The notes below the pieces were generated by a model. It made no database searches, was not told the DNA's origin, and saw only the letters and a list, made by a program, of their open reading frames with translations. A stretch of DNA of 63,875 nt. It comes from a virus. The position numbers were made by a program, and so were the translations under genes. Positions 33,943 to 53,774 of this stretch are shown one piece after another. Positions within the stretch are counted from its first letter, which is position 1, and every line of letters begins with the position of its first letter. Where the stretch lies: IMG/VR virus record IMGVR_UViG_3300023278_002646, positions 1 to 63,875 of that record, one strand, 5' to 3'.

Positions 33943-34773
33943 TTATTCTCCTTGTTTATTAAAACAATCATATATTGATTGGGTTGGGTCTATTTTAGCT
34001 GTCCATCCGATGTTTTTTAATTTAGTTATATCCGCTTTGGAAGTTAGAATATCTCCATCTCGTGGAGGAGTATTTATAAATTCAGCTTTATTATTAATAA
34101 CATTTATAATATCTTTTATTTGATTTAAAGAAATGGTTGTTCCAGTTCCAACATCATAAAACTCTCCATTAAATTTCTTATCATAATTCATACAAAAGAT
34201 GTTTGCGTCAATTATGTCTGCAACATTAATAAAATCCCTACTCTGTTCTCCATCTCCATCAATTTTTAAAGGTAACCCCCTTTTAATCATTTCTATCCAA
34301 GCACTTATGACAGTTGAATAGGAACCGCTATATTCCTGATCAGCAGAAAAAACATTATAGTAACGTAATGACACGGTGTCTAATTTGTATAAATCTGAAT
34401 AGAGTTTGCATTCCTGCTCACAAATTAGCTTATGAAGACCATAAGGAGAAGTGGGTCCTTTACCATTTCCGACTGCTGCAGCTGACGAGCTAAATATAAC
34501 TCTTTTTACATGGTGATTATAAGCCCACTCCAGAAGAATTGAGGTGGCATATGCATTTTGTCTAAATGTGTAGCTTGGATTACGAACTGAATATTCAACA
34601 CTTGGAAGAGCAGCCATATGAAAAACATAATCATAATCTTTATCAGGAAGGCAGCTGATTAAGTCTTCTCCATCCTTTAAGTCAATTCCGGTAACGTTAT
34701 GACCTAGATCGAGAAGGTGCGCGCACAACTTTGAACCTATATAGCCCTTATGCCCTGTTATTAACGTTTTCAT
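33943..34773 (-). CDS. NAD-dependent sugar epimerase/dehydratase (GalE-like SDR)
   Basis: 276 residues from the ATG at 34773 (MKTLITGHKGYIGSKL), two bases after the upstream stop; an in-frame extension to 34812 would overlap that gene. The Rossmann motif T-G-H-K-G-Y-I-G, the strand VFHMAALPSV, the catalytic Ser region IFSSSAAA and the Y-x-x-x-K pair in SPYGLHK place it in the extended SDR family. The closest pattern is UDP-glucose or UDP-N-acetylglucosamine 4-epimerase (GalE/WbpP type). It would interconvert nucleotide-sugar epimers in the cytoplasm. It is the last gene of the glycan cassette. Confidence 0.85.
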   Translation of the reverse strand: MKTLITGHKGYIGSKLCAHLLDLGHNVTGIDLKDGEDLISCLPDKDYDYVFHMAALPSVEYSVRNPSYTFRQNAYATSILLEWAYNHHVKRVIFSSSAAAVGNGKGPTSPYGLHKLICEQECKLYSDLYKLDTVSLRYYNVFSADQEYSGSYSTVISAWIEMIKRGLPLKIDGDGEQSRDFINVADIIDANIFCMNYDKKFNGEFYDVGTGTTISLNQIKDIINVINNKAEFINTPPRDGDILTSKADITKLKNIGWTAKIDPTQSIYDCFNKQGE

Positions 34774-34775
34774 AG

Positions 34776-35753
34776 CTATAGAATATTTGTATTTCTGAGT
34801 TGCTGTAGACAACTCTCCCAGTTTTCAAACATGATTCCCTTATCATCAATATAACATACAGCACGGGGTTTCTCGGCGGTCACCTTACTGATATACTGAC
34901 TAAGGTTGTGCTTTTTTAGCCACTCCCAAACCAGTTCTGTGCCTGTTTTCCCATTCACTAAACCGCGATCTTTTCGAGCTTTACAGGTATAAACTATTAA
35001 AGTATACTTATCAGACAACTCTTTTAGAGCAGTGCGCACACCCTCAACTGGCTGATCATATATTGTTCCATCGTAGAATCCCTTGGAACACTGGTGAATT
35101 ACTTTATCAAAATCAACTCCGATATTAATTTTTTCATCGGGGTAGCTATGTTCTCGAATCTCTCCACCTTTCCAGTTTAATTTATCGAGATCGTCCGGTG
35201 CGTTGTGTCCAATTGGAGGGCAAATCTTACCCGAACCGTGGGTTAATTGGTAACTTAATAACAAAGTTAAAACTTCGGCGGTATGATAATAATTTGCCCC
35301 AAGAACAACTTCTGTAAGTGTTGATATCTCGGCCGGGATGGCGTGTGAGGTAATCATCGCAACTTCCATATTGTTGTCTTGACCCCACTGCAGAGCTTTA
35401 ATAATATCCATTGACTTACCCGAAGACGAAACTCCTAAAATCAAAGATCTCTTCATTTGGGTTTTAGTTTTTGTTGTTGTTCTGGCAGTAAGCCAGCTAA
35501 CCATCCATTGTTCAAAGTTTGTATCATTGATAAATGAAGTTGCTACCACCGCCGAGCCGGGACACATAGCATTCTTTGTTCCGTTAGACAACCTCGTCAT
35601 GTCTACAGCGGCATGGTCAGCAATAGCTAAATTTCCGCCATGGCCTAAAACATATATATCGTCACATCTATTAAACTTTTTTTGTAATTCTTTCCATTCT
35701 GGTGTGTTGACAACCGATACAAATCGTTGTCCAATATTTTCAAAATTAAGCAT
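34776..35753 (-). CDS. Fusion of GmhA-like SIS isomerase and HAD phosphatase
   Basis: 325 residues. Residues of about 10-175 form a SIS domain like phosphoheptose isomerase GmhA: GHGGNLAIADHAAVDMTR, VATSFINDTNFE, LGVSSSGKS (phosphate-binding Ser-rich loop) and YYHTAEVLTLLLSYQL. Residues of about 205-325 are a HAD-like domain with DFDKVIHQ (nucleophile Asp), TCKARKDRG and CYIDDKGIMFENW (metal-binding Asp pair). GmhA makes D-glycero-D-manno-heptose 7-phosphate from sedoheptulose 7-phosphate; a phosphatase step is also part of heptose activation, so the fusion could do two steps. The substrate is an inference. It overlaps the aldolase gene by 8 bases. Confidence 0.8.
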   Translation of the reverse strand: MLNFENIGQRFVSVVNTPEWKELQKKFNRCDDIYVLGHGGNLAIADHAAVDMTRLSNGTKNAMCPGSAVVATSFINDTNFEQWMVSWLTARTTTKTKTQMKRSLILGVSSSGKSMDIIKALQWGQDNNMEVAMITSHAIPAEISTLTEVVLGANYYHTAEVLTLLLSYQLTHGSGKICPPIGHNAPDDLDKLNWKGGEIREHSYPDEKINIGVDFDKVIHQCSKGFYDGTIYDQPVEGVRTALKELSDKYTLIVYTCKARKDRGLVNGKTGTELVWEWLKKHNLSQYISKVTAEKPRAVCYIDDKGIMFENWESCLQQLRNTNIL

Positions 35754-36429
35754 TTCTTATGATCTCCCTATGATATTCAATTATTGCCATCGTATCCATA
35801 CCTAAACACTTTATACCATAATTAGGATATTTGCCTATCTGTGATTTTACATCTGTAGGGATATGAATCGCTCTTTTTTCAATTGGTAGTATATCATTTA
35901 TTTTATCAATATACAGCATAAAAAGATTATTATCAAATTCTCCGGGTATTCCCAAGCTCAATGATAGATCGTAAGGACCTACAAGATAATAGTCAAAATT
36001 TAACGCTACAATACTAGCTAAGTTTTCAACTCCCTCTTTTGTTTCTATTTGTGGTATCAAAATTGGATCGTCACTTATAAGGCTTCTTTCTCCCCACATA
36101 TTTTGCCTAACAAGCCCTAAGCCGCGGACGCCGCGCGGAGGGAAACAGGAAAAATCTATGATCTTTTTTGCCTGTTCGGTCGTTTCGACTGTTGAAAATA
36201 TAAGACCATGTGCGCCAGAGTCAAGATAGTATCTAATCTTTGTCTTATCAATCTCTGTTAGGCGAACAAGACATATCTTGCCAGATAAAGTGGCAACCTG
36301 TATACAAGTGATCACCGTCTCATCATTAAATCCACCATGCTCTGTGTCTAACACAACTCCTTCGCAGCCAGAGTTGCATAGTATCTCAGTTATCAAAGGA
36401 GAGGGTATTTGTTGCCAAGTTAAAATCAT
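35746..36429 (-). CDS. HpcH/HpaI-family aldolase
   Basis: 227 residues, slightly shorter than the usual 250. Diagnostic elements are VLDTEHGGF near residue 27, FPPRGVRGLG, the metal-ligand Glu in PQIETKEGVENL, and the metal-ligand Asp in GPYDLSLSLG. The family cleaves or forms 2-keto-3-deoxy acids through a divalent-metal-bound pyruvate enolate. In this cassette it might act on a 2-keto acid sugar or supply a C3 unit, though nonulosonate synthases are a different family. It overlaps both neighbours by a few bases. Confidence 0.85.
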   Translation of the reverse strand: MILTWQQIPSPLITEILCNSGCEGVVLDTEHGGFNDETVITCIQVATLSGKICLVRLTEIDKTKIRYYLDSGAHGLIFSTVETTEQAKKIIDFSCFPPRGVRGLGLVRQNMWGERSLISDDPILIPQIETKEGVENLASIVALNFDYYLVGPYDLSLSLGIPGEFDNNLFMLYIDKINDILPIEKRAIHIPTDVKSQIGKYPNYGIKCLGMDTMAIIEYHREIIRNA

Positions 36430-36890
36430 CTAGAATACTCTTCTATCAGGTCCGAACATACGCCGGCAGCTACCTGAAATTCTTCATGACTGTAACTAAC
36501 TCTTTCAGGCATAACACATATTGATTTTGTTGTTAGAAGATTCCCAGGATAAGTCCAAAGGTACCCTCTCGTAGTTAATGTAACATCGTCCTCCTGATGC
36601 CAAAAACAGTGTATTCCCATAAATAACAAATTTTTTAGTGCTTCAATATTCTTAGCATGACACCATAGAGCATTATTATAGAAATAAGTCTTATGTACCT
36701 CATATTGAGGCTCATCGTGACCAAGATACCATTTATTATTCTCATACCAGACATCTATCTCAACGTTATAGCCGTTGCTTATAGCCTGTTGGATATAGTC
36801 TGGATTGTTTTCTCGATCGGGATTCGGGCCATTGATGTTACCTCTATGAGAAATTAGTATCACTTCTTTACCACATATGCTGAGGGGCAT
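36426..36890 (-). CDS. GDPD-like (glycerophosphodiesterase/PI-PLC fold) protein
   Basis: 154 residues, shorter than full GDPD enzymes (about 240). ILISHRGNINGPNPDRENNP contains the H-R-G active-site start, VEIDVWY supplies the metal-ligand E-x-D, and YLGHDEP supplies the second catalytic His. The C-terminal half of the barrel appears compressed. Proteins of this kind sit in bacterial and phage surface-glycan loci and may act on phosphodiester-linked glycan decorations. The start lies inside the TylF-like gene by 31 bases. Fold call good; substrate unknown. Confidence 0.75.
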   Translation of the reverse strand: MPLSICGKEVILISHRGNINGPNPDRENNPDYIQQAISNGYNVEIDVWYENNKWYLGHDEPQYEVHKTYFYNNALWCHAKNIEALKNLLFMGIHCFWHQEDDVTLTTRGYLWTYPGNLLTTKSICVMPERVSYSHEEFQVAAGVCSDLIEEYSR

Positions 36891-37555
36891 ATATAGTTTA
36901 ATGACTTTATCTCAACATCCTTATCATTAAAAAAACAATCTACCGCATTAGCCTCAGACCATCTATGGAAAGCATACTCATCAAAAACTACAATACCTCC
37001 CTTAACTACTCGGGGCCACAAAGCCTCTAAAGCAGCGTAAGTTGGATCCTGAACATCGAGGTCGATATACAACAGTGATATTCTAGCCCCTGGGCGCTCT
37101 GTAACATATTCTCCGGCAGTTTTACATATGTCACCGCTTACCAACTCGTATTCGTGCTCCTCAAAACCACAGGAGGCTATAAACGCGTCGAACTTGTCCC
37201 TATGATTATTTGCGTGTGCATAGTCTCTTTTATCAAATAGAGTTTTCATGGCTTCGGCATCCTGCCCTGAGAGAGATTCGACTAATTTATCAGAATCAAA
37301 AAAATCAAAACCTATTACTTTTTTGCCACTATTCGGGCACAAAAATCTTTTTAATTTTAAAAAGGTAAGAAGACCTGTCCCCTTAAAGACTCCACATTCC
37401 ACTAAGTCACCCGGAAGGTTTTTGACTTGATTGACTAATAATGTCCTGGCCAGTAGCTTTCCAAACACCTTAGTGTCTGAACTAAGCATAAATCCATTAA
37501 AGCTATCAAATAGCTTTTGGGTTGTGTCAATGATTTCTAATTCTTTTAGTTTCAT
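36860..37555 (-). CDS. TylF-like SAM-dependent O-methyltransferase
   Basis: 231 residues. LVECGVFKGTGLLTFL is the SAM-binding loop, VIGFDFFDSD the acidic loop after beta-2, and ISLLYIDLDVQDPTYAALEA the Mg-binding Asp region typical of macrocin O-methyltransferase TylF and its surface-polysaccharide relatives. The later KGGIVVFDEYAFHRWSEANA is also characteristic. It probably methylates a sugar hydroxyl of the glycan made by this cassette. It starts one base before the HAD-nucleotidyltransferase stop codon. Confidence 0.85.
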   Translation of the reverse strand: MKLKELEIIDTTQKLFDSFNGFMLSSDTKVFGKLLARTLLVNQVKNLPGDLVECGVFKGTGLLTFLKLKRFLCPNSGKKVIGFDFFDSDKLVESLSGQDAEAMKTLFDKRDYAHANNHRDKFDAFIASCGFEEHEYELVSGDICKTAGEYVTERPGARISLLYIDLDVQDPTYAALEALWPRVVKGGIVVFDEYAFHRWSEANAVDCFFNDKDVEIKSLNYICPSAYVVKK

Positions 37556-38929
37556 TTATTTACCGTGAAATTTGTTAAAGTAGTCTAGATCCTCCGGAGT
37601 TCCGATTCCCCACATACCCTGTTCCATATGAAACGTTTTAATTTTCTTTCCATCCTCAATGGCCTGATTGAATACAGGGCATACATAAAATTCGTTATTT
37701 ACACGAAGATTATCCTTAATCATGTCCTCGGCGTATTTTACATAGTCTGAACCCTTACGCCAATAGTAAATACCGGTGGTTGCTATGTTGCTGATTGGCT
37801 TTTTTTCGGCCACTTCCGAGACGAAACCGTCAGCGTTCAACTTAGCAAAACTCCATTTTGGATGCGTGGCTGTAAAGGTAAGCATTCCTCCGTCAATTTC
37901 GTCCGCTTCCATGGAATACATAAACTCATTACTATCCCAATCTAGGAATTGATCAGAGTTAGCATACACCAAGGGCTCATTATTGTTAATAAATTTTTTT
38001 GCTAATAGCGTAGTGCATGCAGCACCTTCAGTCATACCATCAACTTGTACAACTTCGCACCCGGGGGAGATAAGTCCCAAGAGATGGCGAAGATTGTATT
38101 TTTCGTAATGCTCCTTCTGAACAACAAAAATGTGTTTTGCGTCGATGTTTAAATTATCAACCACCAATTGAATCATTGGCTTTCCTCTTACCTCAATTAG
38201 CGGCTTTGGAAAAGTATAGCCGGCCTTTTGGAATCTCGATCCGGCGCCGGCCATTGGAATGAGAACATTCATTTTACCTCCTTGCCACTTGGGCTTAATT
38301 TTGTTTTGCGATTCCGCTTTATTAATTGTTTCTTTAATTTTATCATAGCAAACATCTTCACTGTTTTTAACTGCGCACAAATATGCTCCACTACAGAGTG
38401 CAGCTTTTCTGCCATGGTGTGAGTCTTCCACGATTACCGTCTCACCCGGATCCACATCAGCCTTCAACATACATCGCATATAAATCTCCGCGCTAGGCTT
38501 AGGCTTATTTACATCTTGGTTGGTATATAGAAAGTCAATATGTTCAAATAGTCCTTTGCGAATCAATTGCAGTTTGGCAGTATCACGAATAGAATTGGTT
38601 GCGCATGCTATTTTATATCCTTCATATTTCAACTTTTTCAAAATTGATTTCATCCTCAAGTCTGGCCCAAAAGCATCAATAATTTCAATTGTTTTGTTTT
38701 GCTTTGCTTTCCACACAGCATTATGAAGAAATTCTGGGAGTCCCTTATTAGCTGTTAACATTTTAAGCTTTCTAGTTGTTGAGAGCCCATCATATGTCGA
38801 GAGATGTTCAGCACGATGTATGACATATTTGATATCAATATCTGATAACGATTTGTTTAAGGCTTGGTAGTGTAATTCTCGGGCGTCGACCAACACGCCG
38901 TCGAGATCGAATATTACTAACTTAATCAT
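37556..38929 (-). CDS. Fusion of HAD phosphatase and sugar nucleotidyltransferase
   Basis: 457 residues from the ATG at 38929 (MIKLVIFDLDGVLVDARELH), which overlaps the upstream stop by 8 bases; an extension to 39019 would run into the glycosyltransferase gene. Residues 1-215 are a beta-phosphoglucomutase-like HAD domain: DLDGVLVD, CATNSIRDTAK, VNKPKPSAEIY, VIVEDSHHGRKAA. Residues 220-457 are a nucleotidyltransferase: NVLIPMAGAGSRF, FPKPLIEVRGKPM, VYANSDQFLDWDS (metal-binding region), WSFAKLN. It would dephosphorylate and/or activate a sugar phosphate to NDP-sugar. An internal start with its own strong ribosome binding site lies at the domain junction (see the site at 38270-38285). Confidence 0.85.
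   Translation of the reverse strand: MIKLVIFDLDGVLVDARELHYQALNKSLSDIDIKYVIHRAEHLSTYDGLSTTRKLKMLTANKGLPEFLHNAVWKAKQNKTIEIIDAFGPDLRMKSILKKLKYEGYKIACATNSIRDTAKLQLIRKGLFEHIDFLYTNQDVNKPKPSAEIYMRCMLKADVDPGETVIVEDSHHGRKAALCSGAYLCAVKNSEDVCYDKIKETINKAESQNKIKPKWQGGKMNVLIPMAGAGSRFQKAGYTFPKPLIEVRGKPMIQLVVDNLNIDAKHIFVVQKEHYEKYNLRHLLGLISPGCEVVQVDGMTEGAACTTLLAKKFINNNEPLVYANSDQFLDWDSNEFMYSMEADEIDGGMLTFTATHPKWSFAKLNADGFVSEVAEKKPISNIATTGIYYWRKGSDYVKYAEDMIKDNLRVNNEFYVCPVFNQAIEDGKKIKTFHMEQGMWGIGTPEDLDYFNKFHGK
38270..38285 (-). promoter_or_regulatory. Internal ribosome binding site and start for the nucleotidyltransferase domain
   Basis: On the minus strand AAGGAGG is followed four bases later by ATG AAT GTT, the first codons of the nucleotidyltransferase domain. 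This Shine-Dalgarno is better than those of most genes here. It would allow a free 238-residue enzyme (37556-38272) to be made besides the fusion. The residues just before it (KPKWQGGK) look like a linker. This may record a recent gene fusion by loss of a stop codon. Confidence 0.6.
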
Positions 38930-39851
38930 CTCGAAGTTTCTCCCCACCTTTTGTTGGGTGAATATCGATATCGCCTTGTTTATCAACATCCAACCAAATA
39001 TCGCCGCTTCTCCAGCCAACTATGTTTTTGTTGTGAAGTTCGATATTCTTTTCAAAACCGTAGTATTGCACAAAACTCGGTACTTTTGGTGGCGTGGGTG
39101 GATTGTCAATAAAATCTTGAGTCCAATTAACGAGCCATCCATTATATGATGGTTGTGTCTTCCAAGTGTCTTTCCATTTCCAGTAAAATATCTGCGTAGT
39201 ATGATACCAAGCTTCGTCCCAAAGTTCATTAGATTTTATTTCTTTCCAATCAGCGTTGCCACCTTGATACTCGGACGTATCAAGTGGCAGAGCGTCTTGG
39301 TGATTTAAAAGTCTTTGATGTACAAAATCACCGATCATTGATTTTTCCTTGTTGTATATTAAAGCTCGAATATAATAATCTGCCTCTTTGTTCCCTGGCG
39401 TGAGATAACGTTCGTCCCACATACCAATTTTTTTGACTGCTTCAGGCCGGTAACTGACAATATTATCTCCCAATTGACCGGTCACAAAAGTATACTTCAT
39501 ATGAAGCCTGAGAAGGTTATATGCCCAGTGAGGAGACAGAACAATGTCGTTTTGCATCGTAACCACAATTTTAGCGTCCGGGTTGTCTAGATCCTTAAAT
39601 CCATGCAAAAGTGCTTCGTTCCAATTTCTAGCAAGATTACCAGTATCATTATCTATTCTAGTATTATTGTGAATAACATTTACTTTATTCGCGAACTCCT
39701 CTTCTAGAAAAAAATCAGAGTGATTGTTGATTATATTTACTTCTGTGTTGGGTATCGAGGTAAAATCTGTCTTGTTAAACAAAATATCTAGGGTTTTATT
39801 TAAAATCTTAGTTCTACGATAGGTCACGATATATATCTTCATATTTTTCAT
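38922..39851 (-). CDS. GT-A fold (family 2-like) glycosyltransferase
   Basis: 309 residues. The N-terminus MKNMKIYIVTYRRTKILNKT is the usual GT2 start; VVTMQNDIVLSPHW carries the acidic nucleotide/metal-binding motif (N-D-I in place of D-x-D); DERYLTPGNKEADYYIRAL supplies the acceptor-side acidic pair. Trp-rich sequence in the C-terminal third (WYHTTQIFYWKWKDTW) is unusual. It is soluble with no membrane segment. It would transfer an activated sugar to a growing glycan or a virion protein. Confidence 0.75.
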   Translation of the reverse strand: MKNMKIYIVTYRRTKILNKTLDILFNKTDFTSIPNTEVNIINNHSDFFLEEEFANKVNVIHNNTRIDNDTGNLARNWNEALLHGFKDLDNPDAKIVVTMQNDIVLSPHWAYNLLRLHMKYTFVTGQLGDNIVSYRPEAVKKIGMWDERYLTPGNKEADYYIRALIYNKEKSMIGDFVHQRLLNHQDALPLDTSEYQGGNADWKEIKSNELWDEAWYHTTQIFYWKWKDTWKTQPSYNGWLVNWTQDFIDNPPTPPKVPSFVQYYGFEKNIELHNKNIVGWRSGDIWLDVDKQGDIDIHPTKGGEKLRDD

Positions 39852-40495
39852 ATAATTTTCCTTAATTTATCTGCTCGATCCCAATCGGACTCAATGTCAA
39901 TATCTATATTTTCTGGCTCAGTTAATCCGTAAAAATAAGGATTTAAGCCCACGCGTGAATTAGTGCTCATTATAACCTGCGGATCAAAAATATAAAAGGC
40001 TGAATTTTCTTCATATAGAGCTGGCAAATCTTGTGTTTGCTCCATTTTTACTGGGTTGTGATTCACGGGACAGTATCCGTAAGCTTCTTGTCTCCAAAAG
40101 CGTGATTGGTAAATATTACAAGCGACCACTGAGTCATAGGTGTGTATAAACTTTTCTGCCTCTATGATGGTTTCTCTTTTCAAAAAAGGACTTGTAACAT
40201 GAATCTGAACTAGAGGAGAATCAACGTTGTGAGATTTTATAAAGTCTTCTATTAGATCACAAACTGATACTTTATCCCCTCTTAATTTTTCTTTTCTGTT
40301 AAAAGCGGCGACATTGGCTAATCTATTATCCTTCTTAATAAGATCTATGATCTCATCACTATCAGTATCAACATAAACTTCATCGTGTGGATATTTTAAA
40401 AGAGTGTGCTTAAAAAGCGGCTCTGTACCAAAAATTCTAAAATTTTTTCTTTTCACTCTTTGAGAATTGTGCTTGATAGGGATAAAAATTTTCAT
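39848..40495 (-). CDS. CMP-sugar synthetase-like cytidylyltransferase
   Basis: 215 residues. MKIFIPIKHNSQRVKRKNFR corresponds to the N-terminal CTP-binding motif of CMP-N-acetylneuraminate/CMP-Kdo synthetases (I-P-x-K-x-x-S-x-R-x-x-x-K-N). DEVYVDTDSDEI, VQIHVTSPFLKRETI and the C-terminal ENIDIDIESDWDRAD complete the family. It would activate a 3-deoxy-2-ulosonic acid (sialic-acid-like) with CTP. It is one of two such enzymes in the cassette; this one lacks the cupin fusion. It overlaps both neighbours by 1-4 bases. Confidence 0.82.
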   Translation of the reverse strand: MKIFIPIKHNSQRVKRKNFRIFGTEPLFKHTLLKYPHDEVYVDTDSDEIIDLIKKDNRLANVAAFNRKEKLRGDKVSVCDLIEDFIKSHNVDSPLVQIHVTSPFLKRETIIEAEKFIHTYDSVVACNIYQSRFWRQEAYGYCPVNHNPVKMEQTQDLPALYEENSAFYIFDPQVIMSTNSRVGLNPYFYGLTEPENIDIDIESDWDRADKLRKII

Positions 40496-42805: not shown

Positions 42806-42819
42806 TTCTTTTCCTTTTA

Positions 42820-44730: not shown

Positions 44731-45728
44731 TAAAGTAATCCTTCGGCAATCTTTGTTAGATCAATTGTTTTGTACCATTTATTATACCAAGATATCGTAA
44801 TATTTAAACCTTCTTTTAAAGTAATTGTCGGTTGAAATGCAATGGCATCTTCCAGCTTTTTCGTGTCTGGGCACCGTCGCTGTACCGAGCCGGGTGGTGC
44901 GTTTTCGATGTCAAACTTATCCCCAAGTTTATACCATTCTGTAATAATTTTGGCAACTTCAAGGATTTTAACCTCTTCTTCAGAATTGCCAATATGATAT
45001 ACACCGGCTGGCACATCAGACAATGCTAACGATAACGTAGCCTTCGTGGCATCATCAATATAGCAAAAAGCCCTAGTCTGGTCGGCGCCATAGATTTTAA
45101 AGGGAATTTCACCCTCCATTGCTCTTCTGATAAATTGAGGCATTACATGCTTGGTGCCCATTCGGGGTCCATAAATATTGTGATAACGGATGATCTGATA
45201 GTCGATACCATATTGCTCCGCAAAACTGTTTATGAGGATCTCGCATGCGAGCTTGCTTCCTCCATAGGAAAATCGGGGATTTATAACATCCTCAATAGTG
45301 CATGCCACATCTTCACTCGTTGGTATCTGCGTGGGGTCTCTATTAATTGTTCCGGCGTATACTTCAGAAGAAGAAGTAAAAATGAACTTTGCTTTAGTGT
45401 CCCTGAGATGTTCCAATAAGAGCATCGTGCTGGTAATTGCAACGTCCATAACTGTATATGGGATTTTGTAGAAGTTTTCTGTCCCGTTGATCGCGGCGAG
45501 ATGGAACACAGTGTCATAATCGGTCTCCAGCAGCTGTACATCTTCTTTTTGTGTGAGATCAAGTTGAAAAAATCCTACGCCGTTGTTTTCTATTAGATTA
45601 TGAACAAATTCGTCCTGCTTTCCGCGGGCATTGTTATCACAGATATGAACCGTATGCCCTTCGGCTGCTGCGTGTTGTGCCAAATGAGCACCGATAAACC
45701 CGGTGCCTCCGGTAATGAGAATTTTCAC
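44730..45728 (-). CDS. NAD-dependent nucleotide-sugar epimerase/dehydratase (SDR)
   Basis: 332 residues. MKILITGGTGFIGAHLAQHA is the Rossmann motif, TVFHLAAINGTENF the second-strand block, FTSSSEVYAG the catalytic Ser/Thr region, and FSYGGSKLACEI holds Tyr-x-x-x-Lys. RAFCYIDDATKA and VYHIGNSEEEVKI are typical of dTDP-glucose dehydratase and UDP-glucuronate decarboxylase relatives. With the UDP-sugar dehydrogenase-like gene upstream, a UDP-glucuronate to UDP-xylose or epimer route is conceivable. It overlaps the neighbours by 1-4 bases. Confidence 0.85.
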   Translation of the reverse strand: MKILITGGTGFIGAHLAQHAAAEGHTVHICDNNARGKQDEFVHNLIENNGVGFFQLDLTQKEDVQLLETDYDTVFHLAAINGTENFYKIPYTVMDVAITSTMLLLEHLRDTKAKFIFTSSSEVYAGTINRDPTQIPTSEDVACTIEDVINPRFSYGGSKLACEILINSFAEQYGIDYQIIRYHNIYGPRMGTKHVMPQFIRRAMEGEIPFKIYGADQTRAFCYIDDATKATLSLALSDVPAGVYHIGNSEEEVKILEVAKIITEWYKLGDKFDIENAPPGSVQRRCPDTKKLEDAIAFQPTITLKEGLNITISWYNKWYKTIDLTKIAEGLL

Positions 45729-46525
45729 TGCTTTCTCATTCCATCGTAAACTGTTACTTGATACTTGTCGTTTTCATCCAACAGCATTTGAAAGAAATTA
45801 ATATCTAAGCCAGCTTCTCTAACTAAGGTTGCTATAGCCGATGTATCTTTCGGCAGGCAAACACCTCCAAAACCTCTAAAATTTTTATTACATTGTAGAT
45901 ATGAATTAGTAATATGAGAACGATTAACTAACGCATTCTTAACTGCTGTATAATCTGCATCTAGATGATCGCAAACTTCATAAAAACTATTAGCAAGAGT
46001 GATTAGTGTGGCATTATAAATGTTGTTATAATATTTAACGATCTCAGCCTCCACTGGCTTTAACTGCACTACCTTTGCAGGATAATGCCCATGGGCCTTC
46101 TTAATAATTTCAAACACATTTTCTTTCTCTGTTCCTACAACACACAAATCGTGATTTTCAATAAAGTCCGTTACAGCGCATCGTTCGCGCAAAAACTCAG
46201 GGACGAAGCATATGGCAAGATTAGGATATGCATCAATGAGTCGATGCGTAGTCCCGGGCTCGACGGTTGATTTAATAGCTGCGACACCGGTGTAGCCAGC
46301 TTTTGAAAGCGAAGCTAGGCTAGACTCTACGATTGACGTATCACATTTGCCATTATTGTCTGGTGGCGTTGGGACACACAGGAAACACACCTCCGTATCT
46401 AATACATCCTCGAAAGCACTGTTCTCATACCTAGGATCGTAATAACTTGTGATATGCCCTAATTCTCTAAATCCAGTTTCGGCAGCTGATCCAACCACCC
46501 CTAGTCCTAAAATTCCAATTTTCAT
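45725..46525 (-). CDS. UDP-sugar 6-dehydrogenase-like protein lacking the C-terminal domain
   Basis: 266 residues against about 430 for typical UDP-glucose/GDP-mannose dehydrogenases. The NAD-binding start MKIGILGLGVVGSAAETGFR, the block CFLCVPTPPDNNG, AIKSTVEPGTTHRL, FVPEFLRERCAV, and the catalytic-Cys motif FGGVCLPKDTSA (Cys in G-G-x-C-x-P-K-D) are all present. The UDP-binding third domain is missing. Either this is a minimal enzyme or the substrate is bound by a partner. It overlaps the DegT-like gene by four bases. Confidence 0.82.
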   Translation of the reverse strand: MKIGILGLGVVGSAAETGFRELGHITSYYDPRYENSAFEDVLDTEVCFLCVPTPPDNNGKCDTSIVESSLASLSKAGYTGVAAIKSTVEPGTTHRLIDAYPNLAICFVPEFLRERCAVTDFIENHDLCVVGTEKENVFEIIKKAHGHYPAKVVQLKPVEAEIVKYYNNIYNATLITLANSFYEVCDHLDADYTAVKNALVNRSHITNSYLQCNKNFRGFGGVCLPKDTSAIATLVREAGLDINFFQMLLDENDKYQVTVYDGMRKQ

Positions 46526-47115
46526 TTCTTAAACACTCCCATTTTACGAAGATCTGGCCAGTCCTCCAAGGTCCATTGTCGAGGTTCTGTTGCAATTGCC
46601 TCCGGTAATTTTTCAAGTCCTTTTATCGCAGTCTCTGGTGTCATATAGTAATGATATCCAACTGTTGTAATATCTTGAGATGCCCATGGAATATCCGGAA
46701 GCCGGCCATCGTAAGACATTTTTTTAAGTTCTGCGGCTGCAGCTAGATCGTCACACAATATAATGCCGCCGCGGCCCAAACTTAAATGCTTACGGAATTG
46801 AAAACTCACGCACATAAAGGTTCCTGGCATATAGGAATGCTCTTTCCATAGCACTGCAGCATCGATAATATTAGTTCCACCAAGATAATAATAATCTAGC
46901 CAATTTTCCTGTCGCCACTCCAGTTCAATATTCAACTTTCTTGATAACATCGGCACAGATATATATGTCTGCACCGGTGTTGAAAATTTCTTTACATTTT
47001 GGTGGCGCAGGCATAATTCTAAGCCGTGAGTGCAACAATCTACCGCTATAGCGTATGGTGCTCCAAAAAATTTAGCTATTTCTTTTTCAAATTTAGATAC
47101 TGCCTCGAAACTCAT
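46522..47115 (-). CDS. Minimal DegT/DnrJ/EryC1-like aminotransferase (197 aa)
   Basis: 197 residues, about half the usual 370. The N-terminal FEKEIAKFFGAPYAIAVDCC matches the family start (E-x-E-x-A-x-x-x-G). TNIIDAAVLWKE corresponds to the PLP-stacking D-A-A motif. FQFRKHLSLGRGGIILCDD matches the Schiff-base motif (S-F-x-x-x-K-x-x-x-x-G-x-G-G) with Lys kept. What follows is cut short: the C-terminal domain is nearly absent, and about 30 residues between strands are missing near residue 80. It could be an active minimal enzyme, or a PLP-fold protein with a changed role. Codon coupling to both neighbours argues against a decayed gene. Confidence 0.75.
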   Translation of the reverse strand: MSFEAVSKFEKEIAKFFGAPYAIAVDCCTHGLELCLRHQNVKKFSTPVQTYISVPMLSRKLNIELEWRQENWLDYYYLGGTNIIDAAVLWKEHSYMPGTFMCVSFQFRKHLSLGRGGIILCDDLAAAAELKKMSYDGRLPDIPWASQDITTVGYHYYMTPETAIKGLEKLPEAIATEPRQWTLEDWPDLRKMGVFKK

Positions 47116-47654
47116 TTAACACACTCCACATTCAAACTCATTAAGATACCATTATCTTTATCCATATGCGGCATATGTGCCTGTGAATGGTCATCAAATT
47201 CTGCATGGTCGGTCTTCCTCCAATCCCACATCCTGCAATCAGAAAATCCAGCTTGTTCTAGAACTGCACAAATTGATTGAAAATCGTAAACCGTCTTGTG
47301 ATATATAGTCTGGTCTCCCATTGGCATTTTGCCATATAAAAGCCCTACAAAATAATTTAAGTCATACTTACCTTTAGAATACAGATTTGCAATCATCCGA
47401 AAATTGGGAACAGCAATTCTCAAGACTCCCCCTAGTTTTAAAACCCTGTGCCATTCGGTTAGTAGATGCGGGATCTCTTCACGATCAAAATACTCCACTA
47501 CGTGCGAAGCGTATATCAAGTCTACGCTGTCATCCTCATAGTCTGACAGATCTGTAATTGAAAAGGAGTCTAAATGTTCATAATCTCCTGAGTCTATATG
47601 ATCCCACCCTGGTCCAAAGTCTCTCCAGCCACAGCCCATATTTATTTTAATCAT
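47112..47654 (-). CDS. Class I SAM-dependent methyltransferase (type 11-like)
   Basis: 180 residues. INMGCGWRDFGPGWDHIDSG is the SAM loop followed by the acidic Asp; the block DDSVDLIYASHVVEYFDREE is the motif after beta-4; EWHRVLKLGGVLRIAVPNFR is the classic post-motif of Methyltransf_11 members. The substrate is unknown. In this cassette it would methylate a sugar or a lipid-linked glycan. The start overlaps the cupin gene stop by 8 bases and its own stop overlaps the DegT-like start. Confidence 0.85.
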   Translation of the reverse strand: MIKINMGCGWRDFGPGWDHIDSGDYEHLDSFSITDLSDYEDDSVDLIYASHVVEYFDREEIPHLLTEWHRVLKLGGVLRIAVPNFRMIANLYSKGKYDLNYFVGLLYGKMPMGDQTIYHKTVYDFQSICAVLEQAGFSDCRMWDWRKTDHAEFDDHSQAHMPHMDKDNGILMSLNVECVK

Positions 47655-48090
47655 CTGGCATAAACTCCTTGTCTGCCTTTAATCCGTAATAAGGCCCAGA
47701 CTTATACTCCAAAATCAGAGTATCGTCTTTCATAATTTCATATGTATGACCGCCATAAAGTGTGATGGACAAGTCTCCTTGTTCTAGTATTATATTTGTA
47801 ATGTGTGAGAAGTCTTCATCGTATAACGTAGCTTTTACGGCGCCGCGAACCACATACCATGACTCCTGTGCAATCGACGTGCTTGGGACCTCCTTAAAAA
47901 TATGTTTGTGTGCGCGGAAAGTTCTCCCAGCATCGTGCTTCATAACTGCTAGCTGCAGGTATTCCTCGTCTGGAATAATATCTTCCCTAGTATCATTAAA
48001 TAAAGAAGTTCTATAAATAACATGCAGAAGCTTGTCGGGATCTTTTTGGGAATATATTTTCATTGCCGGCGAAGAAGAAAAAATAGTCAT
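47647..48090 (-). CDS. Cupin-domain protein
   Basis: 147 residues. A single beta-barrel pattern is visible: EEYLQLAVMKHDAGRTFRAH, then ESWYVVRGAVKATLYDED, then LEQGDLSITLYGGHTYEI. The first cupin motif keeps His residues (F-R-A-H-K-H) and the second keeps G-G-H. It may be a sugar-nucleotide isomerase (FdtA/WxcM-like) or a binding protein. It starts after an AGGTAAATAAA leader and sits two bases from the GT42-like stop. Confidence 0.7.
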   Translation of the reverse strand: MTIFSSSPAMKIYSQKDPDKLLHVIYRTSLFNDTREDIIPDEEYLQLAVMKHDAGRTFRAHKHIFKEVPSTSIAQESWYVVRGAVKATLYDEDFSHITNIILEQGDLSITLYGGHTYEIMKDDTLILEYKSGPYYGLKADKEFMPDD

Positions 48091-48091
48091 T

Positions 48092-48784
48092 TTATTTACC
48101 TAACGCTTTCTTTAGAGGCATCATCTTAAAGCATCTCAAGGTGCTTGTTGGACTGCAGTTTATAATTTCTACTCCAGCATGCGCTGCCCTGTAGGCAAAT
48201 TTGTTCCAAGTTGGTTTATGAAAATCTTGGCCGCGAGGAATATTATATTCATCCCCAGCCTGTTGATAATCGCTAAACCAGTAATTAGGATTCTCCTTGG
48301 GTGTCTCTTTCATTCGAAGAGCAACCCCGTCTCGTTCGGAGCCATCAACAAATTCTACATAATTGCAATCAACACCCAAAAGAATTATCTTTCTGTATCC
48401 CATACAAACAGCAGCCGAAGATGCATTGGCGCCAGAATTTCCATTATCATGAAAAGACACAAAATCATTATGTGACTTATTCCATTTATTAGTGGTGCCA
48501 TATTGTTGCAGACTTACATACTGAAATTTATCGTTGCCAGACAGGTTTCTAATATAAAAGCACTTTTTAATAGGTGTGTTCTCGATGAGATTGATAAAAC
48601 TTTCTTTATGGTTATCTGTGACACGATAATCAAAGCACCCATGGTAAGTCGGATACCAGTTCATTCTCTCGTAGGCGCGGTAAGCTGCATTCAGCCCAAA
48701 TGTATCATACCCATCAAGATCAGCAAAATCTATATCCGCTAGGGAAGGTCCATTGCCCATCAGAATAATTGTTTTTTCACTCAT
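48092..48784 (-). CDS. GT42 sialyltransferase-like / DUF115-type protein
   Basis: 230 residues. IILMGNGPSLADIDFADLDG near the start matches the nucleotide-binding loop of GT42 sialyltransferases such as Campylobacter Cst-II (A-G-N-G-P-S-L-x-x-I-D-x-x-x-L), followed by YDTFGLNAAYR. Later, NSGANASSAAVCMGYRKIIL then LGVDCNYVEF parallels the second GT42 motif (S-G-x-x-x-x-x-x-A-x-x-x-G-Y-x-x-I-x-x-x-G-x-D). DUF115 proteins also carry G-N-G-P-S-L, so a non-transferase role is possible. CMP-sugar genes downstream favour a CMP-sugar-dependent transferase. Confidence 0.65.
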   Translation of the reverse strand: MSEKTIILMGNGPSLADIDFADLDGYDTFGLNAAYRAYERMNWYPTYHGCFDYRVTDNHKESFINLIENTPIKKCFYIRNLSGNDKFQYVSLQQYGTTNKWNKSHNDFVSFHDNGNSGANASSAAVCMGYRKIILLGVDCNYVEFVDGSERDGVALRMKETPKENPNYWFSDYQQAGDEYNIPRGQDFHKPTWNKFAYRAAHAGVEIINCSPTSTLRCFKMMPLKKALGK

Positions 48785-49629
48785 ATATTACTCCAAAAAT
48801 CATTCATTTGATTTTGAATATGTCTTTTGATGCTTTCTGACGTTTTAAACCATTTCTCATCTTTATGTTGAACATTATCATTTAATTTTAGATCACAACC
48901 CAAAATTTTTGCTTCCATTACAATTCTAGGGCATGTGTCTCCTCCCAATGGGCGAAAAATAAGACCCCTTGAAGTAGAGAGTTTTATTAGCATTTCGTGA
49001 TAAGGCAAACCATTTATTACTTCATAATTAAGATTATTGTTTTTAGCAAAATTAATATTATCTTTGGTACCCTTAATCCAAGAGTTGGAACCTAATATCA
49101 AATACTTATTATCTTTAATATTATCTTTAATGGAAAACATAAATTTAAGATCTCCCTTATTAAACACAGAATTTAGAACACTTGTTTTTTCTGATCTTAA
49201 AAAGATTAGATTATTTAAATATGTTTGCCTCTGTATCACAGACATAAACCATATGTGATTTGCATACCCATAAAATGCTCTGTTAATCTTTCCGGTAGTG
49301 GATATATGGCAGTCGCATTTCATTCCTGTTTCAGCCAAATGTTTTTCAGGAGATCGATAAATACAGTATTTATAATCATATTCAATAATTGAATAATTAA
49401 TGTTTTTGCATAAGAATACTTTCATTCTATCATTAAGCAAAGAAAAATTACATATAACCCAATCAAAATCCTTGTTATCTAATACTTCTTGTTCTGTTAA
49501 GTTACGACAATACTTTTTTTCTATTTTTACGTCTTCTGGCGAGTATGATACTATACTATCTGTTGTAAGTTCGGCGCCTCCAGAATAATCCTCTGAGTAG
49601 AAATCTGCTAAAAATATTATTTTTCTCAT
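48781..49629 (-). CDS. GT-B-like glycosyltransferase (AT-rich gene)
   Basis: 282 residues. FLADFYSEDYSGGAELTTDS has the G-G-A-E-L start of family 4-type glycosyltransferases; LGSNSWIKGTKDNINFAKNN marks the start of the second Rossmann lobe; IFRPLGGDTCPRIVMEAKIL carries the nucleotide-sugar E-A motif. The gene is visibly richer in A/T and Lys/Asn/Ile codons than its neighbours, which suggests a separate origin. Its stop overlaps the GT42-like start (ATGA). Confidence 0.7.
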   Translation of the reverse strand: MRKIIFLADFYSEDYSGGAELTTDSIVSYSPEDVKIEKKYCRNLTEQEVLDNKDFDWVICNFSLLNDRMKVFLCKNINYSIIEYDYKYCIYRSPEKHLAETGMKCDCHISTTGKINRAFYGYANHIWFMSVIQRQTYLNNLIFLRSEKTSVLNSVFNKGDLKFMFSIKDNIKDNKYLILGSNSWIKGTKDNINFAKNNNLNYEVINGLPYHEMLIKLSTSRGLIFRPLGGDTCPRIVMEAKILGCDLKLNDNVQHKDEKWFKTSESIKRHIQNQMNDFWSNI

Positions 49630-50882
49630 AGTAAATCAGCAAGCAATGAATCTACCTCTTCTTCCAAGGCTCTTTGTTCCTCTTCATCAACTATACAGTT
49701 AATAAAATTAGAATATATAATCTCATCCGTAAAGTTCTCGCGGATGTAGTTCTTTAAGCCCTCAGCTTCATTACGATAGTGAGTTTCCTTTTCCAGGCAT
49801 TCTGTTAGGGCGCGCTTATAAGAGTTCTCGCGGGCGAAGGCCCACTTTGAATCAGCTTGGATTACTCCATTCCAAACAGCAGACTTTTGAACTTCATTTA
49901 CATCATAGTCAACTCTAACGATTCTTGGAACTTGCTTGCCTTTCTTGTTTGGTTTACAAATAAAGTCCATTTGACCAGACCAAGCTGTCGTAATAAGAGG
50001 CAAACCGTGATAAGCAGCTTCAAACAAAGGAAGCCCATATCCTTCGCCGTGACCAATATTAATCAAAGCTTTCATTGTAGGGTGCTCGTAGAGCCACGCT
50101 AGGTTCCCAGGAGAGACTTCACCATGGATTAGGTATACCGAGCACTTACGCTCGCCAAAAGCCTTTAGAAGAGATTCTAGACGCTTCTGTGTTAACTCTC
50201 GATCCATTACAGAATCAGACGCTGTATTTGTCTTTAATACAAGACCTACATCCTCCTCATTCCTGAACGTCTCAACAAACCACTTAACCGTGTTCTCTAG
50301 ATTCTTTCTAGGTCCCCACTGTGATATCGCAAGAAAGTTCTTGTCCGTCTTAAAGTCAATGTTAACTTCTTCTGGTTCAAACTCTCTAACCGGATAGTTG
50401 ACTGCTTCTATTGGAACTTGAAGTCCCCAGCCTTTGATCTCATTTCCGTTTTGATCCTTTACATCATAGGTTGTCTGTTCAAACACCTTCTTAGAGTGAT
50501 TTGATACAACAATCAGCTTATCTACATTATCGTTTGACTTTTGGATCCACTGTGGGGCTACTTTTGTTGTTTCAATGCCGGCAGTATATCCAATGTTTAC
50601 AGGAGCTATCTTTTCAAACTCGTTAGGTACTGTAACTTGTAAAGATATGTCAAACTGACCTTTTTGCTGTACGTGTACTTGTGTCTTAATGAGACACTCG
50701 TTGATAAAGTTAGTTTCTTCATCAATATTTGTTATCTGCCCGGTGCCTCCCCAAGCAATATTGACGATATAAATATCAAATAAATCTGGTCTTGAACGTA
50801 GTGAGCGCAGAGCAAATCGTGATTGCTCGCCATATCCGGATCGAGATAGGATTGGCCCTTTGATTAATACTTTCTTTAACAT
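49626..50882 (-). CDS. Family 4-type glycosyltransferase (418 aa)
   Basis: 418 residues. The N-terminal GPILSRSGYGEQSRFALRSL is the acceptor-side loop; KNFLAISQWGPRKNLENTVK is the start of the C-terminal Rossmann lobe; NIGHGEGYGLPLFEAAYHGL contains the E-x7-E donor-binding motif, followed by PLITTAWSGQMDF. It would transfer a sugar from an NDP donor. It overlaps the next glycosyltransferase gene by one base; the two form a pair at the head of the cassette. Confidence 0.85.
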   Translation of the reverse strand: MLKKVLIKGPILSRSGYGEQSRFALRSLRSRPDLFDIYIVNIAWGGTGQITNIDEETNFINECLIKTQVHVQQKGQFDISLQVTVPNEFEKIAPVNIGYTAGIETTKVAPQWIQKSNDNVDKLIVVSNHSKKVFEQTTYDVKDQNGNEIKGWGLQVPIEAVNYPVREFEPEEVNIDFKTDKNFLAISQWGPRKNLENTVKWFVETFRNEEDVGLVLKTNTASDSVMDRELTQKRLESLLKAFGERKCSVYLIHGEVSPGNLAWLYEHPTMKALINIGHGEGYGLPLFEAAYHGLPLITTAWSGQMDFICKPNKKGKQVPRIVRVDYDVNEVQKSAVWNGVIQADSKWAFARENSYKRALTECLEKETHYRNEAEGLKNYIRENFTDEIIYSNFINCIVDEEEQRALEEEVDSLLADLL

Positions 50883-52132
50883 TAAAATACCCTCACTTCG
50901 TATGCATTGTAACCTTCACGGTCTTCCCAAGAACCCTTTTCTTCGTGGATTGAAGTAAACAACTCATCCCATCTTTGAACATACTTATCAAAGTTAAAAC
51001 GATCTTGTGTCCAGGCTCTTCCCTTGACGCCGAGTTCTGTTCTCTTCTCATCGCCCATCTCATATAGTTCAACCATAGCATTAACAAAATCATCTTTACT
51101 TAGACGATCTTCGTGAATAAATGGAACCTGCTGGGAGCCAATGATTGCCTTTGAAACCGGGTTCAATCCTATTCCAAAGAACTGTTCTCCGTCAGTTACT
51201 TGATCCTGTAATCCGCCCGTCATATTAACTAAGATAGGAGTTCCGCAAGATAGTGATTCTAACGTTGAAAGACCAAACCCTTCGGCATCAGAGATACACG
51301 CTGTTACATCCGCAATGTTATACATATGTGCTAGATCTCTCGCATTGACCTTTTCTCGCGAAAATAAAACTTGTCCTTCTGTTAATCCAAGTTCGTGAAT
51401 AATTGCTTCCAAGTCTTGTCCATGCTGATCCTTTACATCAGTATGCATAATCAAGCACGCATTCTCATGACCAACCTTATCTAAGAAGTCTTTAAACCAC
51501 CAGATTAAAGTGCCTGATTGTTTGCGGCGGGCATTTCTGCTATTCCAGAAACATACAAACTTATTATCTAGATTCTTTTGCTGTCTCCATTTAAGAATGT
51601 CGTCTTTTTCAAGAGGTTTAAAGATCTCGCCGTCAACTGCGTGAGGGATATAAGAAGAATCAACCTCTGGTGCTACTGTCTCGACAATATCGTGCGTAAG
51701 CTTTGATATACAAGCAACATGATCGTTGGATAGATAGAACTTACGGTTATAGGTAGGATAAGGATAGTTGTCCCAAACATGGTAATAAACCATTGGAACG
51801 TTGGCTCTAATTTCGTTCTCGATGTTCCAAAGCCATCCATAGAACCTAGGATCGGTCATAAACCACAGAATATCAGGCTTTTGCTGCTTGATCATTGCGC
51901 GGACCATATCTGGATTACCGTATCCATCAACAGGCCATATAACCCAATCTTCTCCCCACTCTTCAAGATGCTGAGGGTCGTGATTTGGGTGCTTTACGGC
52001 ACCACCAAAAGAAACAAACTGGTATTTACCAGTCTTAAGCATTCCTTCGATCATATATTTTGTTTGAGTTCCAACACCGCTTGGGGACAGTGGGTGGTCA
52101 CTGATAGTAAAGATCTTAATCTTCTCTGACAT
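50882..52132 (-). CDS. Family 4-type glycosyltransferase (416 aa)
   Basis: 416 residues. The start KIKIFTISDHPLSPSGVGTQ, the block FVCFWNSRNARRKQSGTLIW and the donor-binding ISDAEGFGLSTLESLSCGTP then ILVNMTGGLQD define a GT4 enzyme (E-x7-E present). It begins the cassette, eight bases after the PD-(D/E)XK nuclease stop. GC content looks higher than in the middle of the cassette. Confidence 0.85.
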   Translation of the reverse strand: MSEKIKIFTISDHPLSPSGVGTQTKYMIEGMLKTGKYQFVSFGGAVKHPNHDPQHLEEWGEDWVIWPVDGYGNPDMVRAMIKQQKPDILWFMTDPRFYGWLWNIENEIRANVPMVYYHVWDNYPYPTYNRKFYLSNDHVACISKLTHDIVETVAPEVDSSYIPHAVDGEIFKPLEKDDILKWRQQKNLDNKFVCFWNSRNARRKQSGTLIWWFKDFLDKVGHENACLIMHTDVKDQHGQDLEAIIHELGLTEGQVLFSREKVNARDLAHMYNIADVTACISDAEGFGLSTLESLSCGTPILVNMTGGLQDQVTDGEQFFGIGLNPVSKAIIGSQQVPFIHEDRLSKDDFVNAMVELYEMGDEKRTELGVKGRAWTQDRFNFDKYVQRWDELFTSIHEEKGSWEDREGYNAYEVRVF

Positions 52133-53542: not shown

Positions 53543-53774
53543 TCTTCTTTTCCATCTGCTCTATATCATTTAGAGCCTGCTCATATCCTCGTAAAAAGTT
53601 CTCTTCGGCAACAGCCATCAAAAACTCTGGGAACTCTGCTGCGAAGACTTCAACAGCCATATGAACTGTGATCTCTTCTTCTGCTGCTGCTAGTCGTTCA
53701 CCAATATAGTTAACGACTAAATCTTTAAGTCCTGTTTGCGAACTTACAACTTCTCTTAACGCCTCGTTTTCCAT
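53535..53774 (-). CDS. Small acidic helical protein (79 aa)
   Basis: 79 residues, acidic, almost entirely helical by composition (ENEALREVVSSQTGLKDLVV, AAAEEEITVHMAVEVFAAEF). A GAGGT Shine-Dalgarno precedes the ATG. The stop overlaps the HEAAH-protein start by 8 bases. No family is recognised. Confidence 0.65.
   Translation of the reverse strand: MENEALREVVSSQTGLKDLVVNYIGERLAAAEEEITVHMAVEVFAAEFPEFLMAVAEENFLRGYEQALNDIEQMEKKNV

Follow-up and report, generated by a model that had tools for sequence, protein, structure and literature searches.

A probable glycan-building cassette exchanged as a unit among relatives of an uncultured marine myophage

Here we analyse a block of 20 genes at positions 33943-52132 of a 63,875-base linear virus record (IMG/VR IMGVR_UViG_3300023278_002646; the whole record is referred to as the window). 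The block is almost certainly a glycan cassette. Judged from its sequences, it appears to build an acidic, sialic-acid-like or 3-deoxy-D-manno-octulosonic acid (Kdo)-like sugar that is attached by sialyltransferase-type enzymes, and once attached this sugar probably alters the viral or the host surface. Related viruses, with high confidence, swap the inner ~15.7 kb as a unit. The donor used by one transferase domain is likely to be a cytidine monophosphate (CMP)-activated ulosonic-type sugar. Taken whole, the explanation that we slightly favour is that an uncultured marine myophage carries an exchangeable cassette of entirely soluble proteins for glycan building, with the product and route proposed below.

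Gene content of the cassette

The window carries six tRNA genes and a tmRNA gene, a PhoH gene, a late sigma factor and baseplate genes. Its baseplate protein reaches at best 28.6% identity, to a Microcystis phage counterpart, and a 712-aa protein shares 41% identity, across half of its length, with proteins of Methylophilales phages and 38% with a pelagibacter phage protein. These low identities place the window in an uncultured lineage that is a distant relative of T4-like marine myophages.

An earlier, sequence-only reading had placed a cassette of eighteen genes here. The cassette is present and tightly packed on the minus strand, with neighbouring genes overlapping or a few bases apart, but the count is 20. 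It is bounded by a nuclease-like gene at 52141 and, on the other side, by a block of small genes and a sigma factor at 33578. Eight related viral records (L001-L008) have these genes too, in largely the same order, which goes beyond chance. Two starts given by the open reading frame (ORF) finder were too long: the HAD/nucleotidyltransferase gene more likely begins at 38929, a start based on orthologue lengths of 455-460 aa, and the last epimerase gene at 34773. The genes are listed below with E-values and with identities to two relatives, G012 (L016 and L103-L105) and G001.

50882-52132, minus: GT4 glycosyltransferase (Glycos_transf_1 1.4e-14); conserved frame, outside the swapped unit; 83% in G012
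49626-50882, minus: GT4-like glycosyltransferase (GT1/GT4 3.2e-5, just under the cut-off); last conserved gene before the swapped unit; 76% in G012
48781-49629, minus: putative glycosyltransferase, first swapped gene; no Pfam match; 30% in G012, 54% in G001
48092-48784, minus: Maf/GT42-superfamily transferase (GT42-like), by CstII profile and predicted fold
47647-48090, minus: WbuC-like cupin (NCBIfam cupin_WbuC 8.5e-8, under the cut-off)
47112-47654, minus: S-adenosylmethionine-dependent methyltransferase (Methyltransf_11 3.4e-8)
46522-47115, minus: shortened DegT/LegC-like protein, 197 aa (DegT 7.2e-14); pyridoxal phosphate (PLP)-lysine motif SFxxxK retained
45725-46525, minus: short UGDH-like nucleotide-sugar dehydrogenase (UDPG_MGDP_dh 8.4e-19)
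44730-45728, minus: NAD-dependent sugar dehydratase/epimerase, RmlB/LegB-like (Epimerase 8.6e-46)
42820-44730, minus: two-part protein with a C-terminal GT29-like sialyltransferase domain (PF00777 over the cut-off, fold, motifs)
41666-42805, minus: CMP-sugar synthetase with a C-terminal cupin fusion, here CMPcup (CTP_transf_3 1.8e-22, Cupin_2 1.8e-15)
40495-41709, minus: class III aminotransferase, lysine epsilon-aminotransferase-like (Aminotran_3 4.6e-59)
39848-40495, minus: second CMP-sugar synthetase-like protein (CTP_transf_3 4.4e-13)
38922-39851, minus: putative glycosyltransferase; no Pfam match; 73-81% identity across the group
37556-38929, minus: HAD phosphatase and sugar-1-phosphate nucleotidyltransferase fusion (HAD_2 4e-27, NTP_transferase 6.8e-12)
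36860-37555, minus: TylF-type O-methyltransferase (TylF 2e-11)
36426-36890, minus: small protein, possibly reduced glycerophosphodiester phosphodiesterase-like (likeness by eye, no family match); kept in L001-L008
35746-36429, minus: HpcH/HpaI-type pyruvate aldolase, here HpcH (PF03328 1.5e-13)
34776-35753, minus: SIS-type sugar-phosphate isomerase (GmhA-like) fused to a HAD-like domain (GmhA 1.9e-5, under the cut-off; phosphoheptose isomerase 5i01 5.5e-5)
33943-34773, minus: NAD-dependent epimerase, last cassette gene (Epimerase 4e-44); 59% in G001, 21% to an unrelated epimerase in G012
52141-55103, minus: flank A, with nuclease-like, metalloprotease-like, small and PhoH genes; the first two and PhoH 74-91% in G012
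32053-33578, minus: flank B, with small genes and a late sigma factor (PHROG 234 late sigma 9.2e-7); 59-90% in G012

Exchange of the cassette between relatives

The comparison of related phages that had been proposed as a check bears out exchange as a unit. Outside the block, G012 is mostly 74-91% identical to the window on the flank A side (PhoH 91%, nuclease 88%, the two GT4 genes 83% and 76%) and 59-90% identical on the flank B side (sigma factor 90%, next gene 89%), whereas 33943-49629 is replaced by a different cassette. Conversely, G001 has the same cassette gene for gene at 46-79% identity, between flanks that are more diverged (metalloprotease 32%, nuclease 53%, sigma factor 61%, an 82-aa gene 24%). 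One relative thus shares the flanks and not the cassette and the other shares the cassette between diverged flanks, which delimits the exchanged unit of ~15.7 kb and leaves the two GT4 genes on the conserved side of its boundary. Swapping of the whole cassette fits selection for changing surface identity.

It is very improbable that the cassette is mostly a neutral passenger block, moved by recombination and with several decayed genes such as those of the short DegT-like and UGDH-like proteins. Both enzymes are far shorter than their families, and individual genes come and go between relatives; against this, reading frames are largely intact across nine phages, the clearest exception being the truncated GT29-like gene of L008, and HpcH, the aminotransferase and the activators show no variation in their catalytic residues.

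Surface-sugar clusters are already known in phages; cyanophage P-SSM2, for example, carries lipopolysaccharide (LPS) clusters. The glycosyltransferase/LPS clusters of pelagimyophages and cyanomyophages share with the cassette a setting in large marine myophages, a variable block of sugar genes and a presumed surface change, but are reported to consist mostly of GT8 transferases, with UGDH and RfaE, in a hypervariable region or in small groups scattered along the genome (PMC7029224). The window instead holds a 20-gene set with activators dependent on cytidine triphosphate (CTP), GT29-like and Maf/GT42-like proteins and a pyruvate aldolase, the inner part of which is exchanged whole.

A second exchanged region consists of putative tail-fibre or adhesin genes (4670-10920, 25074-30855 and 57-1331), which have 22-45% identity or no match to both G012 and G001; other structural genes are conserved (19756-21285, 81% in G012). 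As these genes differ from backbone and cassette relatives alike, they do not help in choosing between a virion and a host-surface acceptor.

Sialyltransferase-type proteins

The GT29-like protein (636 residues) joins ~340 N-terminal residues of no known type to a GT29-like domain at residues ~345-636. PF00777 is matched in the C-terminal half only (residues 345-431; 1.1e-5, 25.4 bits against a cut-off of 23), and the top 25 PDB fold matches of an AlphaFold (AF2) model are all GT29 enzymes, mammalian ones included (best E-value 9.2e-6, probability 1.00). Sialylmotifs L and S, as we understand their definitions from general knowledge, are present (KRVAFVGPAPYL..G..IDSYDVVVR..DFGSRTD and NFNSGYGA..LL..L.VFG), and D395, R402, G414, N525, G527 and G546 are nearly invariant in 20 sequences, as is H584. 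The earlier call of a GT29-like transferase is therefore upheld by the Pfam score and the fold, with a deviation in motif VS (see below). In common with GT29 sialyltransferases of animals and with bacterial and plant members, the protein has the Pfam score, the motif L and S regions, a catalytic-type His and the predicted fold. Unlike them, it has no membrane anchor, is GT29-like in its C-terminal half only, carries Gln in motif VS and has a predicted donor. For plant GT29-like proteins, Kdo has been proposed as the transferred sugar (PMC5811610). A viral structure library already includes a GT29-family protein of an uncultured phage (A0A6J5NLG3), so the occurrence of this family in phages is no novelty. 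Neither the GT29-like protein, the GT42-like protein nor CMPcup had a tblastn match in 50,697 phage records, of which 3,643 were matched by the PhoH control.

In a related record of 195,690 bases (L008, genome G008), the GT29-like protein is truncated after 287 N-terminal residues, and of the donor module only the second CTP transferase is left.

The GT42-like call stands on the predicted fold and a CstII profile match, but misses the Pfam cut-off for CST-I (PF06002; 0.0039, 17.1 bits against 25); the match to MptE-like (1.3e-6) is also under its cut-off. The profile of the phage family matches CstII chains at 1.9e-5, and the AF2 model (pLDDT 90.5) retrieves Maf 5mu5 first (9.6e-6) and CstII second (1.6e-4), both with probability 1.00 and with modest TM-scores of 0.48-0.52. 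N32, which may correspond to Asn31 of CstII, is invariant in 17 sequences, and H189 (in DFHKPTW), a candidate counterpart of CstII H188, is kept throughout the nine phages of the group but is not conserved in more remote homologues. With Maf flagellin glycosyltransferases and CstII the protein shares the fold, GNGPSL and SG motifs and a lack of membrane segments; it differs in being a single domain of 230 aa under the CST-I and MptE-like cut-offs, in having no flagellin and in not tracking the donor module.

Structure prediction thus gives both proteins a sialyltransferase fold. The sequence-only reading had called the two folds unrelated, which is wrong: both GT29 and GT42 enzymes have the GT-A variant 2 fold, and the families are treated as phylogenetically related (PMC5811610), and the GT29-like model also retrieves CstII, slightly below the GT29 enzymes. 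A comparison of the two phage family profiles is weak (probability 8.9%), although the same motifs align.

Enzymes for donor synthesis

Two CMP-sugar synthetase-like enzymes had been noted in the cassette, and both pass the Pfam CTP_transf_3 cut-off of 22.6 bits (CMPcup 80.6, second activator 50.0), the larger one carrying a cupin in addition. Both match the CMP-N-acetylneuraminic acid synthetase structure 1qwj (2.8e-19 and 6.9e-14, the latter alignment near full-length). Their CTP-binding residues are conserved: CMPcup has a PARMGSKRIPKKN-type N-terminal CTP-binding motif, TSPF and D206/D208, invariant in 19 sequences, and the second activator has PIKxNSQRVxxKN (with Lys replacing Arg), TSPF and D198/D200, invariant in 4 sequences. 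We take the roles of the N-terminal motif in CTP binding and of the Asp pair in Mg binding from what is known of the NeuA/KdsB family. Neither of the findings named in advance as refuting the sequence-only reading, lack of a sialyltransferase fold in both proteins or loss of the CTP-binding residues, was obtained, and its core idea stands.

The sequence-only reading had seen no NeuB in the cassette. None (PF03102) is present in the whole window, nor was one found in the eight records sharing the cassette frame, which may be fragments. A KdsA/DAHP-synthase or NanA/DapA homologue was likewise absent from the window and these eight records (the longest 195.7 kb). From its sequence HpcH is intact, and it is the sole carbon-carbon-forming candidate in the cassette. 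It scores 51 bits for PF03328 (cut-off 25), its best PDB match is 2-dehydro-3-deoxyglucarate (KDG) aldolase 4tv5 (5.1e-25), and D28, H31, R56, E129 and D154 are invariant in four phages; from general knowledge of HpaI and GarL, these presumably include the catalytic His and Arg and the metal-binding Glu and Asp. The host, suggested earlier as a supplier of the acid, is not the sole option, as the cassette has a pyruvate aldolase of its own.

The aminotransferase best matches L-lysine epsilon-aminotransferase 2jjh (4.8e-76), with K263-K264 invariant; the matched enzyme acts on a terminal amino group or aldehyde. Its counterparts in the phage records are distant ornithine-type or unannotated proteins (24-30% among the matches listed), and the SIS/HAD protein is matched there by its HAD half alone, in three actinophage records. 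With the Kdo and nonulosonic pathways (KdsA-KdsB, NeuB-NeuA, Leg/Pse) the cassette has CTP_transf_3 activation in common, and its SIS isomerase and HAD phosphatase domains resemble those of the Kdo pathway; unlike these pathways, it has no phosphoenolpyruvate-dependent synthase, leaving HpcH as the only candidate for the carbon-carbon step, and includes a class III aminotransferase.

Co-divergence of transferase and donor module

The donor module CMPcup-aminotransferase-CTP_transf_3 occurs in five phages (the window and L001-L004), and three others (L005-L007) have cupin-SDR-CTP_transf_3 at the same place. We compared identity within and between these groups for 18 shared gene segments. The GT29 C-terminal domain shows the largest gap of all 18 (71.3 within and 51.2 between donor types; gap 20.1), followed by HpcH (66.3 and 54.6; 11.7) and then by the N-terminal half of the GT29-like protein, while the GT42-like protein shows almost none (69.4 and 66.7; 2.7). 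Read most simply, these alignments suggest that the swapped donor module makes the substrate of the GT29 domain and that HpcH acts in the same pathway. The GT42-like protein, which does not track the module, probably uses another donor, one common to all members. Of the two transferases, only the GT29 domain follows the CMP-donor module across relatives, which weakens the sequence-only reading as regards the GT42-like protein.

Products and targets of phage sugar-gene clusters are mostly guessed. The cassette-swap and co-divergence comparisons are new, and yield a testable pairing of transferase with donor as well as exchange boundaries.

Related loci in other phages and bacteria

Outside the group, CMPcup is encoded at ~20 additional or overlapping viral loci and, across many phyla, at ~30 bacterial ones. 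Most of the bacterial loci have an SDR, a 3-dehydroquinate synthase-like (DHQS-like) sugar phosphate cyclase, a 2-hydroxyacid dehydrogenase, a MocA-type oxidoreductase and an SIS isomerase, often with the same aminotransferase; the cyclase matches solved DHQ synthases and 2-deoxy-scyllo-inosose synthase. This widespread operon (L050-L076, for example L057:9992-17345; shorter in phages L012-L028) comprises CMPcup, a class III aminotransferase or DUF4862, SDR, DHQS-like, 2-hydroxyacid dehydrogenase, MocA and SIS genes, and by its gene content looks like a route to an activated, possibly carbocyclic, sugar. We found no description of it in the literature searched. The CMPcup fusion, the aminotransferase and the SIS protein are common to the bacterial operon and the window cassette; the latter lacks the DHQS, SDR, 2-hydroxyacid dehydrogenase and MocA genes and has HpcH and a second CTP transferase.

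The operon bears on a different product, an activated aminocyclitol or other cytidine diphosphate (CDP)-linked alcohol, for which the CTP_transf_3 enzymes would target some other hydroxyl or phosphate group, with the GT29-like and GT42-like proteins repurposed. The best support for such a product is the DHQS-like operon variant itself: CMPcup, the aminotransferase and SIS sit with the cyclase and SDR in phages L012-L028, and many bacterial loci add the MocA-type and 2-hydroxyacid dehydrogenases. DHQS and GmhA-like SIS enzymes could also both fit a seven-carbon sugar phosphate, and a cytidylyltransferase acting on phosphoglycerate, CpgD, is known (PMC12275187). We nevertheless consider this product rather unlikely for the window group, no record of which has a DHQS-like gene, HpcH being there instead; moreover, the solved structures that best match the two activators and the two transferases belong to enzymes with substrates of the CMP-sialic or CMP-Kdo type.

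The best outside support for HpcH feeding a CMP-ulosonate comes, at the level of gene order, from two operons: CMPcup-HpcH-KdsB in SAR116 (L060) and CMPcup-aminotransferase-HpcH-methyltransferase-KdsB in an Omnitrophota genome (L083), with both KdsB proteins above NCBIfam cut-offs. A sample of 285 genomes from the L083 phylum and 136 from the L060 order contained too few further loci for co-occurrence statistics. Mutual exclusion of HpcH and the DHQS-like cyclase was considered and rejected, as L069 and L083 share 127-base ends and are apparently one operon with both genes.

These operons also bear on the version of the sequence-only reading in which the phage merely activates and transfers a host-made sialic-acid-like sugar, HpcH and the aminotransferase serving another residue. 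The lack of NeuB in the window group is in keeping with that version, and NeuB is carried by some other phages with related cassettes (L012, L029-L033), indicating that NeuB-type sugars are in use in this niche. We find it doubtful, as HpcH and the aminotransferase share an operon with the activators in both L083 and the window, and HpcH co-diverges with the donor module.

Acceptor of the glycan

By simple hydropathy, no cassette protein of the window has a membrane segment, and none of 507 ORFs in 23 phage cassette regions has at least 4 predicted segments, compared with 17 of 415 at bacterial loci (Fisher p = 1e-6). The lack of a multi-pass initiator, flippase or polymerase is compatible either with a cytoplasmic acceptor, namely virion proteins, or with the finishing of a lipid-linked glycan of the host. 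Maf proteins are part of O-glycosylation systems that work in the cytoplasm, and they can attach N-acetylneuraminic acid (Neu5Ac) or Kdo to flagellin (PMC7591256, citing Khairnar 2020). The Maf-like fold of the GT42-like protein makes us lean slightly to the virion, which we hold to be an even prospect as acceptor, the host surface standing somewhat below even.

Sugar clusters of marine myophages are usually read as changing the host O-chain (PMC7029224). Accordingly, the cassette might alter host O-antigen or capsule to block superinfection, combining phage nucleotide sugars and soluble transferases with a host flippase and polymerase. In favour of this, the same reading has been given to the pelagimyophage hypervariable-region glycosyltransferase clusters (PMC7029224), and bacterial relatives of the modules lie in surface-polysaccharide-like loci with membrane proteins. 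Yet none of the 23 phage cassettes has an initiating, flipping or polymerising membrane enzyme, and a synthetic set of 20 genes exceeds the needs of a simple side-group modification, so that we see this scheme as possible but on the improbable side.

Proposed route and points against it

In the route that we propose, HpcH would condense pyruvate with an aldehyde, which may come from a sugar phosphate processed by the SIS/HAD protein, and so yield a 3-deoxy-2-keto acid with no need for NeuB. The aminotransferase would add an amino group to this acid or to a precursor, one or both CTP_transf_3 enzymes would make the CMP-sugar, and the GT29-like domain would transfer it. The GT42/Maf-like protein and the other transferases may add residues from donors common to all members. 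Virion proteins, or some other acceptor in the cytoplasm, would most likely receive the glycan, much as flagellin is modified by Maf; alternatively, the cassette would complete a host lipid-linked glycan. That the ulosonic-type donor is made through HpcH is a tentative proposal, and the full chain of a NeuB- and KdsA-independent phage route swapped as one cassette, from an HpcH-made acid through the aminotransferase and CMPcup to a co-evolving GT29-like transferase acting in the cytoplasm on virion proteins, is unlikely to hold in every part.

Several observations weigh against this route. Neither activator reaches the NCBIfam equivalog cut-off of NeuA, PseF or KdsB (PseF 81.5 and 54.6 bits against 205.7), nor does any other nucleotide-sugar enzyme of the cassette reach such a cut-off; the dehydratase/epimerase at 44730-45728, for instance, scores 146.9 bits for TIGR01181 and 112.6 bits for LegB, both under theirs. 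The model of the GT29-like protein has a pLDDT of 66.5 overall, higher in the C-terminal domain, and in motif VS (H-x4-E) Q589 replaces the Glu after H584, short homologues included, for which reason we class the protein as GT29-like only. Recombination between neighbouring genes could by itself produce the co-divergence, although HpcH is separated from the donor module by ~4 kb that include genes affected less. HpcH is also retained in L005-L008, whose donor module differs. The link between HpcH and a CMP donor consists of the co-divergence and two bacterial operons, one of them joined through the 127-base contig overlap, and many bacterial and other phage CMPcup operons have instead the DHQS-like cyclase, a gene missing from the window group, which hints at a carbocyclic product. 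Finally, the window is a genome fragment.

Should HpcH prove to make the acid, a CMP-activated acidic sugar could be reached without NeuB, and an operon found across many bacterial phyla would gain a possible interpretation. Should the glycan be placed on the virion, phages would be exchanging their own sugar coats whole.

Other observations

The short DegT-family protein (46522-47115) has ~197 aa compared with ~385 in full-length members, yet is 63-78% conserved in L001-L008. Full-length DegT proteins of three other phages (L016, L018 and L021) have His at the position of the PLP-lysine, which we take to be the arrangement of ColD-type dehydratases. The UGDH-like protein (45725-46525; 266 aa) is without the C-terminal uridine diphosphate (UDP)-binding domain but retains the cysteine motif GGVCLPKD, and its gene is swapped out in L002-L005, L007 and L008.

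Candidate late-promoter signals are at chance level in the window (TATAAATA, 8 against 5.9 expected; CTAAATA, 17 against 16.6 expected), so the timing of expression cannot be inferred from them. The tmRNA gene lies at 58047-58360 beside the six tRNA genes, and its tag, ANEADYGLALAA, might help to name the host.

A contig assigned to a Thaumarchaeota metagenome-assembled genome (L047, JACAFS010000027.1) has several sugar genes with 80-90% identity to those of phage L016, and is very likely a viral sequence binned in error. In Verrucomicrobia TMED44, L089:820-4064 encodes cupin-SDR-CTP_transf_3 followed by an SIS-HAD protein 61% identical to that of the window, and represents either a source lineage or another viral contig.

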